Source: Chthoniobacter flavus (GTDB lineage: Bacteria > Verrucomicrobiota > Verrucomicrobiia > Chthoniobacterales > Chthoniobacteraceae). From it: DNA of 64,000 nucleotides. Below, piece after piece: positions 19,535 through 28,330 of this stretch; position 1 is the first letter of the stretch, and the number at the start of each line of letters is the position of its first letter. The stretch lies in assembly GCA_945861435.1 (NCBI GenBank), contig CAMAUX010000024.1, positions 1 to 64,000 of the forward strand, in the 5' to 3' direction. A program made the translations under genes and the position numbers. The notes under the pieces were generated by a model that made no database searches, was not told where the DNA came from, and worked only from the letters and a program-made list of their open reading frames with translations.

Positions 19535-20485
19535 TCAGGCGGGCGGTTGGGCGGTGTTAGCCAGAAGAGTTCGGGCCCGGGTGATGTCGCGGCCGATCTG
19601 GGCTTGGAGGGCGGCGAGGTCCTCGAATTTGCGCTCGTCGCGGATCTTGGAAAGGAGGTGGATTTCGAGTGTTGCGCCGTAGAGATCGGCTGAGAAGTCC
19701 AGCAGATGGGCCTCGGCGGTGCGCACCGGATTGGGCAGGCCGAGCGTGGGACGGATGCCGATGTTGAGTACGCCGCCGTGGGTGCCGGAGGCGTGGCGCA
19801 CATGGACGCAGTAGACGCCATCGGGTGGAAGTTGTTCGTTGGAGAGTTGGAGGTTGGCGGTGGGGAAGCCTATTTCGCGTCCGAGTTGGCTGCCGTGGAC
19901 GACGGACCCTCGAAGTGCGTAGGGGCGTCCGAGGAGTGCGCGTGCGGCATCGAGGTCGCCGTGTTCAAGGGCGTTGCGGACAGCGGTGCTACTGACGATC
20001 AGATCTCCGGATTTGATGGCAGGAAGGCCGACTTCTTCGAAGCCGAGGCGGGAGCCCAGTTCTCTGAGCAGGTCGAGGTTGCCAGCGCGACCCTTGCCAA
20101 AGGACCACTCGTGGCCCACGCAGATTTCGTGGAGTGGCTTGCAGGCATGGGCGAGGGACTCAATGAAGTCCACGGGCGGTTGCGCGGCGAGGGATTGGTC
20201 AAAGGGAAGGATGAGGATCCATTGGACGCCGATGCGTGAGATGAGTTCAGTTTTGTGGGCGGTGTCGGTGAGGAGGCGCGGAGCTTTGTCTGGTCGCAGA
20301 AGGCGCGCGGGGTGTGGATCGAAGGTTACCACGACGGCGCTGCCATTGGCGCGGTTCGCATCCGCCATGGCGCGGCCGATGACGGCTTGGTGGCCAATGT
20401 GGACGCCATCGAAAACTCCGATTGCCAGCACAACGGGACCCGGTACGTGGTCCAGTTCGGAGACGGCATTGAGCACCGTACTCAT
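19535..20485 (-). CDS. ribF: Bifunctional riboflavin kinase/FAD synthetase
   Basis: A 316-residue RibF that makes FMN from riboflavin and then FAD. N-terminal nucleotidyltransferase: LAIGVFDGVHIGHQAV, VTFDPHP, VSSTAVRNAL. C-terminal kinase: GSQLGREIGFPTANL and the GVYCVHV/NIGIRPTLG strand region. The frame continues upstream, but ATG 20485 (MSTVLNAV) is the natural start and lies 38 bases after truB. Last gene of the nusA-infB-rbfA-nrnA-truB-ribF run. Confidence 0.94.
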   Translation of the reverse strand: MSTVLNAVSELDHVPGPVVLAIGVFDGVHIGHQAVIGRAMADANRANGSAVVVTFDPHPARLLRPDKAPRLLTDTAHKTELISRIGVQWILILPFDQSLAAQPPVDFIESLAHACKPLHEICVGHEWSFGKGRAGNLDLLRELGSRLGFEEVGLPAIKSGDLIVSSTAVRNALEHGDLDAARALLGRPYALRGSVVHGSQLGREIGFPTANLQLSNEQLPPDGVYCVHVRHASGTHGGVLNIGIRPTLGLPNPVRTAEAHLLDFSADLYGATLEIHLLSKIRDERKFEDLAALQAQIGRDITRARTLLANTAQPPA

Positions 20486-20523
20486 GGGGTGGGGTGTTGG
20501 GTTGCGGGGGCGGAAGCGGTGGT

Positions 20524-21243
20524 TCAGGCACCACGCATGCGAGATACGGTGGGTAGGCTCAGCATCCGGGCGCGGACCTCTTCGGCGGGGAGGGTTTTGA
20601 GTTCGGCGACGGTGATGGAGTGTTCGAGGTCGAACTTTCCGCTCTTGGTTCTGCGCAGGCTTTTGAGGTGCGCGCCGCATCCGAGATCATTGCCGATGTC
20701 GAAAGCGTAGGTGCGGACGTAGAAGCCCTTTGAGCACACCACGCGAAAATCAATCTCTGGAAGGCGCACTTGTTGGATCTCGTGGGCGTAGACGTGGACG
20801 AAGCGGGGTTCGCGTTCGACCGTCTTTCCCTGACGCGCGAGTTTGTAGAGCGGAACGCCCTCTTTTTTGATCGCGGAGACCATGGGAGGGGTTTGGTAAA
20901 AGTCACCGCGAAACTTCTCGAAAGAGGCTTCGACCTGTTCCTGTGAGAGGGGAGGGACTTGGCGGGTTTCGACGATCTGTCCGTCGGCGTCTTGGCTGTC
21001 GGTGAGGACGCCGAGTTGCATGGTGCCGACGTACTCTTTGTCCTCGCTCATGAGGAGGTCTTGGATTTTGGTGCCGCGTCCGACGACGACTATGAGGAGT
21101 CCTGTGGCGAGCGGATCGAGAGTGCCGCAGTGGCCGACTTTTTTTGTCCCGAGTGCGCGTCTGGCGATGGCGACGACATCGTGGGATGTCATGCCGCTGG
21201 CTTTGTCGACGAGAAGAACACCGTCAATGGTGGGGAAATTCAT
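20524..21243 (-). CDS. truB: tRNA pseudouridine-55 synthase
   Basis: A 239-residue TruB, which makes pseudouridine 55 in the T loop. It opens with DGVLLVDKASGMTSHDVV, and the catalytic aspartate is D43 in HCGTLDPLATGLL; CSKGFYVRTYAFDIG is the RNA-binding signature. It ends soon after the catalytic domain without the extended C-terminal PUA domain of E. coli TruB (type II length). ATG 21243 was chosen; it sits 20 bases inside the end of nrnA, so the two are translationally coupled. Confidence 0.94.
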   Translation of the reverse strand: MNFPTIDGVLLVDKASGMTSHDVVAIARRALGTKKVGHCGTLDPLATGLLIVVVGRGTKIQDLLMSEDKEYVGTMQLGVLTDSQDADGQIVETRQVPPLSQEQVEASFEKFRGDFYQTPPMVSAIKKEGVPLYKLARQGKTVEREPRFVHVYAHEIQQVRLPEIDFRVVCSKGFYVRTYAFDIGNDLGCGAHLKSLRRTKSGKFDLEHSITVAELKTLPAEEVRARMLSLPTVSRMRGA

Positions 21244-22204
21244 GAGCGATAGCGGAGAGGACATTCTCCTCGACCTCGGCGAGGGAACCGTTGGCGCGAG
21301 CGCCTGCAGCGAGAGTGTGGCCGCCGCCACCGAAGGAGGAGCAGATCTTGGAGACGTCGATGCTGGGGTCTTTGGAACGCAGGCTGATGCGGACGAGTTG
21401 ATCTGGGAGTTCCTCGAAGAAGGCGGCGACGACGACGCCTTCGACGGCGCGGATGTAGTCGATGAGGCCTTCGTTGTCCTCGGGCAGGACGCCGAGGTCG
21501 TGAGCGGTTTGCTGGGGGAGGGAAAAGCTTGCGACCCGGTCGGCCGAGGTGAAGCGGAGCCTGTTGAGGACGGCTCGGAGCAACTCCAGTCGGCGGCGCG
21601 GGTGGCTTTGGTAGAGCTTTTGCGAGAGATCGCTTACGTTGACGCCAGCGCGGACGAGTTCGGAGGCAATCTCAAAGGTGCGGGCGGTGGTGTTGGAGTA
21701 TTGGAATGAGCCGGTGTCTGTGGAGATGGCGACAAAGAGATTGTCGGCAATAGCCGGGGTGACGGGGAACTGGTGGTGGTGGAAGAGCTCGAAGAGGATT
21801 TGTCCTGTCGCAGGAGCATTGGGGTCGATGTACGCGAGGTCGCCGTAGTGGTCGTTGGTGACGTGGTGATCGATGTTGATCCAGAGGTCGGCGTGCGCAA
21901 CGGACTTCAGGCAGGTTCCCGCGCGGCTTTTGACGGCCGTGTCCAGCAAGATGGCTACGTCGAAGCTTTCAGGCAGGGCCGGTGGTTTTTGGACGAGATC
22001 GCTTCCAGGAAGGAAGCGGAGTTTGTCCAGCATACCGTCTTCGTTCCAAACAGAGACGTTCTTACCCAGGCCCTTGAGGCAGAGAGCCATCGCCAGTTCG
22101 CAGCCGAACGCGTCACCGTCGGGACGCACATGGCTGATCACCACAAAGCGCTGGTGAGTGCGGAGGGCATCAGCGATTTGTTGGAGGCTGCAGTTGGGTT
22201 TCAT
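21224..22204 (-). CDS. nrnA: DHH/DHHA1 phosphoesterase (NrnA-type oligoribonuclease/pAp phosphatase)
   Basis: A 326-residue DHH-family enzyme. Metal ligands are visible in SHVRPDGDAFG, LLDTAVKSR and INIDHHVTND (the DHH motif) and in STDTGSFQYS; the C-terminal DHHA1 domain carries SSFGGGGHTLAAGA for substrate binding. NrnA degrades short RNAs and dephosphorylates pAp. Position between rbfA and truB is the usual one in many phyla. The symbol is assigned by motif and gene order. Confidence 0.88.
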   Translation of the reverse strand: MKPNCSLQQIADALRTHQRFVVISHVRPDGDAFGCELAMALCLKGLGKNVSVWNEDGMLDKLRFLPGSDLVQKPPALPESFDVAILLDTAVKSRAGTCLKSVAHADLWINIDHHVTNDHYGDLAYIDPNAPATGQILFELFHHHQFPVTPAIADNLFVAISTDTGSFQYSNTTARTFEIASELVRAGVNVSDLSQKLYQSHPRRRLELLRAVLNRLRFTSADRVASFSLPQQTAHDLGVLPEDNEGLIDYIRAVEGVVVAAFFEELPDQLVRISLRSKDPSIDVSKICSSFGGGGHTLAAGARANGSLAEVEENVLSAIAHEFPHH

Positions 22205-22279: not shown

Positions 22280-22657
22280 TCAGTTCGCCGGGTTTTCGGG
22301 CGGCCCATCGGTGTCCGGGGCCGGTGGGGGGAGCTCACTCATGATGTTGAGAATCCGGCTGCCGCGTTCCATCGTTTCATCCACGCGAAAATGAAGTTGG
22401 GGCGTGAATTTGAGGATGATACGGCGGGCGAGCGCTGACTGGAGATCTGTGCGCTTGCCGTGGAGGGCGGCCATGTCGCTGCGCAACTCTTCGGGTGTGC
22501 CGATGAAGCTGACGTAGACGTGCGCGTGCTTGAGGTCTGGGGTGATGTCTACCTGTTGAACCGTGACGAGCTTGGATTGAAAGCGCAGGTCCCGGGTCAC
22601 CATCTCGCCGAGTTCCCTGCGGATGACTTCATTGACGCGTTCGAGTCGGTGTTTCAT
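22280..22657 (-). CDS. rbfA: Ribosome-binding factor A
   Basis: A 125-residue RbfA, a KH-like protein that binds the 30S subunit during late 16S rRNA maturation. It has the family pattern RVNEVIRRELGEMVTRDLR, VTVQQVDITPDLKHAHVYVSFIG and a C-terminal FTPQLHFRVDETMERG. Located directly after infB as in most bacteria, with a 124-base gap. Confidence 0.93.
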   Translation of the reverse strand: MKHRLERVNEVIRRELGEMVTRDLRFQSKLVTVQQVDITPDLKHAHVYVSFIGTPEELRSDMAALHGKRTDLQSALARRIILKFTPQLHFRVDETMERGSRILNIMSELPPPAPDTDGPPENPAN

Positions 22658-22781: not shown

Positions 22782-24902
22782 TCAGAGTTTCTGGGGGACC
22801 TTCTCGAGTGTATAGCACTCGATGATATCCCCAGGTTCGTACTCGTTGAAGTCGCCGAGTTTGATGCCGCATTCCAAACCGCTGCGGACCTCTTTAACGT
22901 CTTCAGTGAAGCGGCGGAGCGTTGCGAGGGCGCCGTCGAAGATGGGTTGTCGGCCGCGGAGTACCCGTGCGCGGCCGGTGCGGGAGATGCGTCCATCGGT
23001 GACAAGGCTGCCGGCGACGAGACCGCGGGAAAGTTCGAAGACCTTCTTCACCTCCGCATGGCCGATGACGGTCTCGCGGTTTTCGGGCTCGAGCATGCCT
23101 GCCATGGCCTCCTTCACCTGATCGATGAGTTCGTAGATGATGGAGTAGAGCTTGATTTGGACGCCCTCGCGACGCGCGGTATTGGCGGCACTGGACTCGG
23201 TTTTGACATTGAAGCCGACAACGATCGCGTTGGATGCGGTAGCAAGAAGCACATCGGACTCCGTGATGGGACCCACGGCTGCATGGACGATTTCGAGGTC
23301 GATCTTCTTGCTATCGATCTGTCCAAGCGAGGACTGAAGGGCTTCGCAGGAGCCTTGGACATCGCTTTTAAGGATGATCCGAAGGACGGGTTTTTTCCCG
23401 GCGGCGAGGTTGCTGAAGAGATTTTCGAGCGTGGCGCGCTGCGGTGTGACGAGTTTGGTCAGTCGCAGTTCGGCGAGACGTTCCTGACTGAGGGTGGAGG
23501 CGGCGCGCTCGTTTTCCATGACGACGAGTTCGTCGCCAGCGTTGCAGAGGCCCGAAAAGCCGAGGACTTTGCAGGGGGTTGAGGGGCCTGCGCTCTTGAT
23601 GGGCTTGTTGGCATCGTCGATGAGGGATTTGACCTTGCCACTGTAGTTGCCGCAGATGAAGGCATCCCCGGCCTTTAATGTGCCTGAACGAACGATCACG
23701 GTTGCGGTCGGTCCACGGCCCTGTTCGATCTGGCTCTCGATGACGGTTCCGCGCGCGATGACGCGGTTGCTGGCTTTCAGTTCGCTGACCTCAGCCACGA
23801 GGAGGATGCTTTCCAAGAGGTGGTCGATGCCTTGGCCTTTGATGGCGGAAACTGGGCAGACGATGGTCTCGCCGCCCCAATCCTCAGGGGTGAGTCCTTT
23901 TTCCTGCAACTGTCCTTTGACCTTGTCGACGTTGGCCCCGGGGACGTCGGTCTTTGTGATGGCGACCATGATATGGACCTTTGCGGCCTTGGCATGGTTG
24001 ATGGCTTCGAGGGTCTGGGGCATGAGGCCGTCGTCGGCAGCGACGATGATGACGGCGATGTCAGTGACATTGGCTCCCCGGGCGCGCATCGCGGTGAACG
24101 CGGCGTGACCAGGGGTGTCGAGGAAGGTGATGTGCTGCGCCTTGTATGTGACCAAATAGGCACCTATGTGCTGTGTGATGCCGCCCGCCTCGCCCGCTGC
24201 CACACGGGTTTTGCGGATTGCATCCATGAGGGTGGTCTTGCCGTGGTCGACATGGCCCATGAATGTGACGATGGGCGCGCGCGAAAGAAGTTCGTCGGCC
24301 TTTGGCTTCTCGACCTCTTTCGGGGGTTCGACGATCTTTTCCACCACCTTGTGGACCCCTCCGCCTTCCTTGCGTTTTTCACGCTCGAAAGTGAACCCGT
24401 GCTTGGCGCAGACTTTGGCGGCCACATCGGGTTCCACGGGTTGGTTGATGGCGGAGAAGATATTCATCTCCATCAGGTCGGAGATGATCACAAAAGGCTT
24501 GAGGCCCATCTGGTTCGCCAACTCCTTGACGATGATGGGCGGCTTGATGTGGATGATTTTGTCGCTGGACGGAGCCTCTCCGGCGGCCGGTGTGGTTGGT
24601 TCCGGCTCAGCAGCAACAGGTTCTGGATCCGGTGTTGGCGCCGGGGGCGGTTCGGTCGCGAGAATCTTCGAGATGCTCGGGAGTGCAAACGGCTTGTGAT
24701 CGGCTGTTGCTGCCTTGCGGATGCGCTTTGGTTTTTCGTCGATCAACGATACCGCCTCCTTGGGCGGCTCCGGCTTTGGCTTGGCTGGGGGGGGCTCTGC
24801 CTTGGGCTTTGCCGCGGCCGCCTTTGCCTCAGCGGATGCGGGCTTTGTAGCGGTGATTTTTTTGAAGGCGCTTTTGACGCCAGTCGTCGACTTGATAGCC
24901 AT
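22782..24902 (-). CDS. infB: Translation initiation factor IF-2
   Basis: A 706-residue IF-2. Residues 1-115 are a Lys/Ala/Pro-rich low-complexity tail, residues 115-180 a helical N domain, then the G domain: G1 GHVDHGKT (216-223), G2/G3 [10 protein letters not shown] and DTPGHAAF, G4 TKTDVPGAN. Domains II-IV follow, with [11 protein letters not shown] and the C-terminal fMet-tRNA-binding region ending [22 protein letters not shown]. It places initiator tRNA on the ribosome. The N-terminal part is short compared with E. coli (890 residues). 147 bases separate it from nusA. Confidence 0.97.
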
Positions 24903-25049: not shown

Positions 25050-26312
25050 CTAGGCCGATGCCAGTCCCTTGTCGCTGGCTCGCTTAGCCGCGTCGCAAAT
25101 TTGCTGTGCAAGAGCGAGGTCCAATCCGATGGCATCTGCGATGTCCTGTGCTTCCACCTCGACCAAGGTATCGAGACTGGCCATGCCTCCCTTGACCAGC
25201 AAGGTGGCCGTGGCCTGATCAATTCCTAGAGCCTCGCTGAGCTGGCGGGCGGCCTGCTGAACGCGGTTCTCGAAGATCTGTGTGGCAGTCTCATCTTTTT
25301 CGATGTTCACCTCCCAGCCTGCGAGTTTTGCGGTAAGTCGTGCGTTCTGGCCGCGCTTACCGATGGCGAGCGAAAGTTGGTCTTCGTCGACGCGGATTTG
25401 AACGACCCGGCGTGCTTCGTCCAGGGTGGCGCTTTTGATTTTTGCGGGCTTGAGGGCTTCAAGCACAAACTCCTTCACGTCGGCGCTCCATCGGATGATG
25501 TCGACCTTTTCGTTGTTGAGTTCGCGCACGATGTTCTTCACCCGCGAACCGCGCATGCCTACGCAGGCGCCCACGGGGTCCACCTTCTCGTTGGCGCTGT
25601 GGACGGCTATTTTGGTGCGGAAACCCGCCTCGCGAGCGATTCCTTTGATTTCCACTGTCCGGTCGGCGATTTCGCTGACCTCAGTTTCAAAAAGTCGGCG
25701 TACGAAGTTCGGGTGGCTGCGGGAGATGATGATCTCCGGGCCGCGCATGCCATTTTCCACCGCCACCACGTAAGCGCGGATCCTGTCTCCGATGTTGTAG
25801 TCTTCGGTCTGCACGCGTTCGCGGGATGGCATGACGGCCTCGAACTTGCCGAGGTCCACGATGACGTCGGAGCGCTCAAATCTGCGCACTGTGCCGCTGA
25901 CGATTTCGCCGGCCCTGTCCTTGAACTCGTCGTAGATCATCTCCTTCTCGGCCTGACGGATGCGCTGCATCATGGCCTGTTTGGCGGTCTGGGCGGCGAT
26001 GCGGCCAAAGTTCTTCGGGGTGACTTCGACTTCCACCTCTTGGGCGAGTTCCGCATCGGACCGGATCCGGCGTGCTGCAGTGAGGCTGATTTCGTCGTGC
26101 TTGTTCTGAACTTTCTCGACGACGATCAGTTTTGCCACAGCCCGGATGGCGCCAGTTTTGGGGTCGATATCGCAACGCAGATCGCGTCCGGCGTCCACCG
26201 ACTTCTTGGCGGCGGAAACCAGGGCGTTCTGGACAGCTTCGACGAGCACCTCGCGCTTGATTCCCTTCTCGCGCTCGAGGTAGTCCAACATCGCAATAAA
26301 TTCTGCATTCAT
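25050..26312 (-). CDS. nusA: Transcription termination/antitermination factor NusA
   Basis: A 420-residue NusA: N-terminal RNA polymerase-binding domain (MNAEFIAMLDYLEREKGIKREVL), S1 domain (EIVSGTVRRFERSDVIVDLGKFEAVMP), KH1 and KH2 (VGACVGMRGSRVKNIVRELNNEKVDI; LAIGKRGQNARLTAKLAG), and a single C-terminal acidic helix-hairpin domain (GIDQATATLLVKGGMASLDTLVEV). The frame extends upstream but ATG 26312 starts the family pattern. rimP, which usually precedes nusA, is not present; instead the next gene is divergent. A predicted promoter and an intrinsic terminator lie in its leader. Confidence 0.96.
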   Translation of the reverse strand: MNAEFIAMLDYLEREKGIKREVLVEAVQNALVSAAKKSVDAGRDLRCDIDPKTGAIRAVAKLIVVEKVQNKHDEISLTAARRIRSDAELAQEVEVEVTPKNFGRIAAQTAKQAMMQRIRQAEKEMIYDEFKDRAGEIVSGTVRRFERSDVIVDLGKFEAVMPSRERVQTEDYNIGDRIRAYVVAVENGMRGPEIIISRSHPNFVRRLFETEVSEIADRTVEIKGIAREAGFRTKIAVHSANEKVDPVGACVGMRGSRVKNIVRELNNEKVDIIRWSADVKEFVLEALKPAKIKSATLDEARRVVQIRVDEDQLSLAIGKRGQNARLTAKLAGWEVNIEKDETATQIFENRVQQAARQLSEALGIDQATATLLVKGGMASLDTLVEVEAQDIADAIGLDLALAQQICDAAKRASDKGLASA

Positions 26313-26345: not shown

Positions 26346-26372
26346 AAAAAAAAGTGGGCTGCAAACCCACTT
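26346..26372 (-). terminator. Intrinsic terminator in the nusA leader (possible attenuator)
   Basis: On the minus strand: AAGTGGG, seven-base loop, CCCACTT, merging into a run of eight T. This is a canonical Rho-independent terminator. It lies 33 bases upstream of the nusA start codon and downstream of the predicted promoter at 26398-26426, with no minus-strand gene before it, so it cannot be ending another gene's transcript. See findings. Confidence 0.8.
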
Positions 26373-26397
26373 CCTCAAGACCCGGAGAGTGGCGGGA

Positions 26398-26426
26398 AAT
26401 GTAGGGGCGCTGTAAACAACCGTCAA
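26398..26426 (-). promoter_or_regulatory. Sigma70-type promoter of the nusA operon
   Basis: On the minus strand: -35 TTGACG (26421-26426), exactly 17 bases of spacer, -10 TACATT (26398-26403). This gives 5/6 and 4/6 matches with ideal spacing. Transcription would begin near 26391, about 80 bases upstream of nusA. Confidence 0.6.
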
Positions 26427-26611: not shown

Positions 26612-28330
26612 GTGGAATCCGCCTACCGTCATCACCGATCGCCTGAGAAGAAGTCGGCGGTTCGGAAGTGGGCCCTCATTGCGGGCTTGGCGGTGATGCT
26701 CGCGTTCGGTTCCAAGCCTGCCTATCGGGCTGTGAAGGGCTGGAGGGCGCGTCAGTTGGCGTCGCAGGTGGAGGAGTTGATTGGGCAGAGGCTGCTGGAC
26801 GAGGCTGCGCAGAAAGCCCGCGCGGCGTACCAACTCAAGGCGACCGAGCCCTTGGTGATTCGCGCGGTTGCGCGGGCGGAGAGCGCGAACGGGCGCTCCC
26901 CGTCAGCGCTGGCGTTTTGGAAGCAACTTCGGGAGATGGGGGCGATGGAGACAGAGGACTGGCGGAAGTTGGTGGAGGATCTGCTGCGCGCTGGGGCGTT
27001 GTTGGTGGCGGATCAGGAGCTCAAAGATTTTCTCGAGAAGCGTCCGGCTGATGTGACTGCGCTGCGGCTTGCCTCCCAGCTTTCGGCGCGGCTGGGGCGA
27101 GCGGAAAATGCGATGGAGCTCGCTCAGAGGGCTTTCGAAGTCGAACCTGAGAACCGGGATGGGAAGTTGCTGGTGGCGCTGCTCAAGGCCGAGTCGGCGG
27201 TGCCGGATATTCGCAGTGGCGGGGTTGCTTTGTTGCTGGAGCTAGCTGGGGAGCCGAACAAGCACGGGTTGGACGCGCTAACGGCGCTCAGCCGACGCAG
27301 GGACCTGACAACGGCACAGCTTGAGCCGTTGGTTGGGTTGGTTCGTGCCAATCCCGAGGCGAGCGATGAACAACGTCTGGTGGGAGTTGAGATCGCGCTG
27401 CGGTTGCACGAGGATCAGGCTGAGGAGATTCTAAGGAAGGCGGTGGAGGAGGCGATGCAGGGGGCGCCGGAGAGGCGGCGTGCACTGGGGACGTGGCTTA
27501 ATCAGCGTAAACGTTTTGAGGCTGCGCTGGGGCTGGTATCAGAGAAGGAGGCTTTCGGGCGCAAGGACCTGCTGTTGGTGCGTCTGGACGCGATGGCGGC
27601 GCTCAACCAGTGGGAGGGGGTGAAGCAGATCCTCAAACGGCGGGACGTGCCCTTGGACGAGGTGTACCGGGAGCTTTTCCTTGCTCGTTGTGCAATGGAG
27701 CAGGGGGAGAACAGCAAGGCGGACTTGCACTGGCGGCGGGCGCATCTGGCGGGTGCGGCCTCCCCTGAGCACGCGTGGTTTGTGGCGAGCTATGCAGAAC
27801 GCCTTGGGCAGACAGAGCAAGCGGAGGTTGCGTACCGTTCCCTCACCACGAAGGCAACCACTGCCCGCGCAGCCTACGAGGCTTTGCTGCGCATGGCGGG
27901 TAAACGGCAGGATGTGGGAGCTCTGTGGGGGTTGCTTCGTGCGATGCGCGAGCGCTGGCCGGGGGATACGGCGGTGGAGAACGATTACGCTTACTTCAGC
28001 CTGCTCAAGGAGACTGACGTGGACGCGGCTTTCCGTTCCGCCCAGCGCTTGGTGCAGGCGGATCCTAGCAGCCTCCCTCATCGTACCACGCTTGCACTGG
28101 CGCTGCTGCGTCTTGGGCAACCTGTGGTGGCGCTCTCAGTTTACGAGGGGCTCAAGATACCTTGGGATCAGGTGCCTGGGAGTCAGCGCTCCGTGTATGC
28201 GGCGGTTTTGAGTGCGAATGGCAAGGTGGAGGAGGCGCGGACTGAGTTGCGAGGGATCCGGGTGGAGGAGTTGAGGCCGGAGGAGCGTAAACTATTGGAG
28301 GCTCTGGGGTCGGCGGCTGGGCAGGGGTAG
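26612..28330 (+). CDS. TPR-rich membrane-anchored protein
   Basis: A 572-residue protein starting with GTG. One N-terminal membrane helix (about residues 19-33, KWALIAGLAVMLAFG) follows a basic cytoplasmic tail, so most of the chain is probably periplasmic. The rest is helical tetratricopeptide-like repeats: several segments show the spacing of A-x-L-x-L-A-x-x (ALRLASQLSARLGRAENAMELAQRAFEVEP; AYFSLLKETDVDAAFRSAQRLVQADP). No catalytic motif. It is divergent from nusA and shares the 300-base gap with it. Likely a scaffold; specific role unknown. Confidence 0.75.
   Translation: MESAYRHHRSPEKKSAVRKWALIAGLAVMLAFGSKPAYRAVKGWRARQLASQVEELIGQRLLDEAAQKARAAYQLKATEPLVIRAVARAESANGRSPSALAFWKQLREMGAMETEDWRKLVEDLLRAGALLVADQELKDFLEKRPADVTALRLASQLSARLGRAENAMELAQRAFEVEPENRDGKLLVALLKAESAVPDIRSGGVALLLELAGEPNKHGLDALTALSRRRDLTTAQLEPLVGLVRANPEASDEQRLVGVEIALRLHEDQAEEILRKAVEEAMQGAPERRRALGTWLNQRKRFEAALGLVSEKEAFGRKDLLLVRLDAMAALNQWEGVKQILKRRDVPLDEVYRELFLARCAMEQGENSKADLHWRRAHLAGAASPEHAWFVASYAERLGQTEQAEVAYRSLTTKATTARAAYEALLRMAGKRQDVGALWGLLRAMRERWPGDTAVENDYAYFSLLKETDVDAAFRSAQRLVQADPSSLPHRTTLALALLRLGQPVVALSVYEGLKIPWDQVPGSQRSVYAAVLSANGKVEEARTELRGIRVEELRPEERKLLEALGSAAGQG

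Follow-up and report, generated by a model that had tools for sequence, protein, structure and literature searches.

The nusA operon of Chthoniobacter flavus is preceded by a promoter followed at once by a short intrinsic terminator, and comparison with relatives and with other phyla argues strongly for control of the operon by premature termination, because the promoter, hairpin and U-run are conserved, the element occurs as a single copy at nusA, and the same stem stands before rimP-nusA elsewhere. Such control had been proposed in a sequence-only reading of the 64,000-nucleotide stretch of DNA analysed here (the window), and the comparative evidence now supports it. The element probably represents, in Verrucomicrobiota, the widespread rimP/nusA-leader attenuator, through which NusA would exert feedback on transcription of its own operon. 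The rimP-leader was described in 2010, in a general form found in Firmicutes and Gammaproteobacteria and with NusA as the suggested factor (Naville & Gautheret, PMC2965389). Our literature search found no description of a nusA/rimP leader from Verrucomicrobiota, and the present element would add a new lineage to a known attenuator. The features of the leader are as follows.

26426-26421, minus strand: -35 element TTGACG, read from the sequence and found by promoter scan
26403-26398, minus strand: -10 element TACATT, 17-nt spacer from the -35 element, read from the sequence and found by promoter scan
26390, minus strand: predicted transcription start (A), 7-8 nt past the -10 element, placed from the promoter position
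26389-26381, minus strand: 5' arm of an outer stem, P1, CTCTCCGGG, weak in the window's species and clear in many relatives
26372-26366, minus strand: 5' arm of the terminator hairpin, P2, AAGTGGG, from the sequence and its conservation in relatives
26365-26359, minus strand: loop of P2, TTTGCAG, from the hairpin scan of relatives
26358-26352, minus strand: 3' arm of P2, CCCACTT, from the sequence and its conservation in relatives
26353-26346, minus strand: T8 run (U-tract), conserved as a T-run in relatives, its first two T pairing with the AA of P2
26343-26336, minus strand: 3' arm of P1, CCCCAGAG, weak in the window and clear in many relatives

The nusA ATG lies at 26312 on the minus strand, 33 nt past the T-run, and a start at about A26390 predicts a terminated RNA of approximately 45 nt, in agreement with the length of the short RNA given in the sequence-only reading. 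That reading was also exact to the base in its description of TTGACG-17-TACATT, of AAGTGGG-loop-CCCACTT-T8 and of the 33 nt to nusA, and was right that there is no minus-strand gene immediately upstream, the neighbouring gene at 26612-28330 (a TPR protein) being divergent from the nusA operon. A transcription start downstream of the hairpin, which it had named as evidence against itself, is not what the promoter predicts: the predicted start lies upstream of P2. The leader region has an RNA fold z of -2.3. A generic terminator scan of the window missed P2, while the promoter was picked up; on our reading of the scan's rule, this is because the stem extends through A-U/G-U pairs into the T-run and consumes the tail.

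NusA searches supplied leaders from 28 whole genomes and from 80 named contigs, with record titles that are largely Spartobacteria, Chthoniobacteraceae or Chthoniobacterales; once duplicates were removed, 93 had 150 nt or more of sequence upstream of nusA. The hairpin that the earlier reading had proposed to look for in related Verrucomicrobiota is there: 73 of these 93 leaders carry a terminator-like hairpin with a T-run upstream of nusA, against 2.3 expected from dinucleotide shuffles. A TTGA-type promoter with a -10 element at 16-19 nt is present in 90/93, and P2 begins mostly 22-34 nt after the -10 element. In an alignment of dereplicated leaders GTGGG is invariant (45/45), 14 of the 45 have A-U in place of G-C at one basal P2 pair, both sides being changed, and the c/g pair beside GGG/CCC in the rimP-leader stem signature varies. 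Because the leader outside P2 is for the most part variable from clade to clade, the P2 stem seems to be held by selection on its sequence besides its pairing. The pattern AGTGGG-N3-12-CCCACTYTTTT has exactly one match per genome in 18 of the 28 genomes, all 18 just upstream of nusA, and this single-copy specificity rules out a general genome terminator. Chthoniobacter flavus Ellin428 (L036) carries the same element. P2 can be lost, since the genomes read from some families of the same order (for example f5, f6 and f7) are without it, and in a few relatives (L042, L046, L053, L086) the U-run is merely UUUUGG, a poor terminator. Three genomes titled Akkermansia muciniphila (L054, L079, L105) carry a Chthoniobacteraceae-like NusA and nusA leader, and their names look wrong.

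Downstream of the leader, Pfam matches confirm the gene content of the operon nusA-infB-rbfA-nrnA-truB-ribF as it had been read from the sequence.

25050-26312, minus strand: nusA (NusA_N, S1, KH and HHH domains)
22782-24902, minus strand: infB
22280-22657, minus strand: rbfA
21224-22204, minus strand: DHH/DHHA1 phosphoesterase (nrnA-like)
20524-21330, minus strand: truB
19535-20680, minus strand: ribF (the listed open reading frame probably starts upstream of the true start)

The same reading had noted that the usual rimP gene is missing in front of nusA. The absence is real, and a PF02576 profile search found no rimP anywhere in the window's genome; it is not peculiar to this operon, however, for the same profile recovered rimP in 10 of 14 control genomes but in 0 of 107 good genomes of the class, a less complete genome giving one weak match. 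Yet RimP is a common factor in 30S maturation. We read these findings as loss of rimP with the leader kept, so that the element is the same kind of attenuator placed at nusA and not literally a rimP leader; the terminator abuts nusA directly, presumably because rimP is gone. The placement of the terminator at nusA in the absence of rimP also argues that the control serves NusA and not RimP, NusA being the better fit as controlling product.

The likeness to the rimP-leader (PMC2965389) extends to a short terminator with a G-rich 5' arm, a C-rich 3' arm and a T-run in the 5' UTR of the operon, to the lack of a visible antiterminator and to NusA as the proposed factor. GTGGG/CCCAC followed by T8 in the window agrees with the GGG(c)...(g)CCC stem and T-run of that family, the position between promoter and nusA-infB is the same but for rimP, and the stem signature is unused at ordinary terminators, as the single match per genome in those 18 of 28 indicates. 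Unlike rimP-leaders, the element in the window has no rimP to precede, there or elsewhere in the genome or class, its terminator lies 33 nt before nusA, and its stem reads AGTGGG/CCCACT; many relatives moreover add P1, whereas the 2010 study reported no larger conserved element. The gammaproteobacterial family Rfam RF01770 (rimP) likewise has a downstream terminator, GGGCU-UUA-GGCCC with U7, before rimP-nusA-infB in E. coli (leader hairpin CUGGGCUUUAGGCCCU7), but consists of two tandem hairpins in 102 nt. The E. coli leader scores 102 with this model, whereas the window gave no match and no score in the 28 genomes of the order passed the gathering cut-off (47 bits), and membership by score was rejected. 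A further comparison is with the ylxS-nusA leader of Bacillus subtilis; the stem in its relative B. velezensis, AGAGTGGG-GAAA-CCCGCTCT-TTT, is nearly identical. An intrinsic terminator between promoter and nusA operon is present at the sequence level in the window as well, although the Bacillus attenuator precedes rimP in a longer leader, and it is there that the NusA effect was tested.

A looser hairpin pattern, applied class-wide to 236 genomes, located the hairpin 42-81 nt before nusA in one further family inside the order (f12) and in six outside it (f14, f15, f16, f17, f18 and f38), at loci whose NusA is about 56-65% identical to that of the window. Other phyla were sampled through chromosomal pieces in a plasmid collection. 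There the hairpin stands before rimP in Bacillus velezensis (AAAGAGTGGGGAAACCCGCTCTTTTG, the stem arms being AGAGTGGG/CCCGCTCT), Sinorhizobium (AAGAGTGGGGCCGTGAGGACCCGCTCTTTTTT), Niveibacterium (GAGTGGGCATTGCGCCCACTTTTT), Listeria (GCGTGGGCCAATGCCCACGCTTT) and Monoglobus (GAGTGAGGGAAACCTCACTCTTTT); Vescimonas and Amphritea have similar hairpins, that of Vescimonas before rimP. Unannotated records of Shinella, Methylobacterium, Fusobacterium and Acetoanaerobium have the hairpin 550-860 nt upstream of nusA, a spacing that matches a putative intervening rimP. The stem AGUGGG/CCCRCU is near-identical across Verrucomicrobiota, Bacilli and Alpha- and Betaproteobacteria. This suggests that a sequence-specific factor reads it, and would allow a direct in vitro test on a single short template. 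By the same scan neither Neochlamydia nor a plasmid-borne Paenibacillus nusA has a leader hairpin; the latter (Paenibacillus sp. 37 plasmid pART37, L292:1201-2274) has no annotated rimP or infB beside it and is possibly an extra NusA copy. Viral contigs gave unspecific matches only. In the class-wide search, three matches with the ending CCCACT-Y-TTTT (L142, L147 and L148) have no nusA nearby and look like chance; those in L147 and L148 sit beside an apparent mercury-resistance locus.

According to the model that we favour, transcription would start approximately 18 nt before the hairpin and RNA polymerase would meet a weak intrinsic terminator, with basal A-U pairs and a U-run, at about +45, where part of the transcripts would stop. 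By extension from Bacillus subtilis, polymerase-bound NusA would raise the fraction that stops, so that plentiful NusA would lower transcription of nusA-infB-rbfA-truB and scarce NusA would raise it. Such feedback at the window's leader is likely, because NusA of B. subtilis reportedly promotes termination within its own leader (reviewed in PMC12288461).

In many relatives the first bases of the predicted transcript can pair with a stretch just past the U-run to form P1, with arms such as UAGUCCGCG/UGCGGGCUA, UAGACCGCG/UGCGGUCUG, CUCCGAG/CUCGGAG and GCUAGAG/CUCUAGC, or GUUCGGA/UCCGAAC in family f16. These arms do not align across clades, so the pairing was assessed by arm-swap and shuffle tests and not by a column-by-column covariation count. 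By a simple pair score a leader's own arms reach 18.0, against 12.8 when swapped between dissimilar sequences and 12.2 when shuffled. Individual leaders exceed their shuffles at p<0.05 in 28 of 70 cases in the order, 6 of 19 in other families, 7 of 21 among leaders without a standard terminator and 4 of 14 from other phyla, these p-values being non-independent among related sequences and resting on a predicted start site; P1 in the window itself is not above chance (shuffle test, p = 0.79). Where P1 is well supported, its 5' arm opens at about +1 and its 3' arm usually stops 6-13 nt short of the AUG, mostly at 6-10 nt in leaders of the order and of other families and often at 11-12 nt in those without a standard terminator. 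Leaders with a strong P1 include L046 and L114. Because the U-run is transcribed before the 3' arm of P1, P1 could not influence the decision to stop and would form in escaped transcripts only; it would have a job of its own, since several lineages retain it after losing the terminator. An outer stem of this kind is not described for rimP leaders in PMC2965389, and P1 is a possible new structural layer on the known attenuator. We suggest, tentatively and as a minority view among our own readings, a two-part RNA device in which the sequence-fixed P2 decides escape and P1 protects or gates the nusA mRNA in the transcripts that escape.

The frequency and placement of P1 would also suit a leader that is mainly mRNA structure, in which P1 closes the 5' end and sets mRNA stability or ribosome access, with termination secondary: the arms beat their shuffles in the proportions given above, inside and outside the order and among terminator-less leaders, and run from the predicted start to shortly before the AUG. 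However, P1 is at chance in the window and above it in only part of the other phyla, and a U-run after the hairpin would be left unexplained, so that we hold this to be quite improbable. Still harder to credit is a hairpin that serves upstream transcripts as an insulator or 3' terminator. The hairpin does look like an ordinary intrinsic terminator, but a conserved promoter lies upstream of it, the neighbouring gene is divergent and the sequence is specific to nusA; an insulator for an upstream gene was rejected on the order of promoter and hairpin. A small RNA gene ending at the hairpin was also rejected, Rfam matches being at chance level only.

Less easily set aside, although in our view unlikely, is an attenuator whose readthrough factor is not NusA but NusG, a cold-shock RNA chaperone, IF2, RbfA or some other operon product, or one of fixed terminator strength. 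No antiterminator and no ligand-binding domain is visible in the leader, and the invariant stem argues for a recognising factor without naming one. NusG together with NusA helps weak hairpins that have terminal or basal A-U/G-U pairs, and the two factors overlap at weak terminators of B. subtilis (PMC8060035). Against this, the element tracks nusA itself, staying there where rimP is absent, and NusA autoregulation is reported in B. subtilis (PMC12288461), which leads us to prefer feedback by NusA.

Several individual leaders depart from the common plan. Six of them (L015, L066, L068, L103, L108, L110) have no terminator hairpin and yet possess a 5'-terminal stem running from about +1 to 11-12 nt before the AUG, the arms in such terminator-less leaders including GACCGA/UCGGUC and CCCGAC/GUCGGG. 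In L017, L018 and L090 an extra hairpin lies between the outer stem and the terminator. These three, together with L074, which is without the extra hairpin, carry CACCTCC just before the nusA start, a sequence that resembles the anti-Shine-Dalgarno of 16S rRNA.
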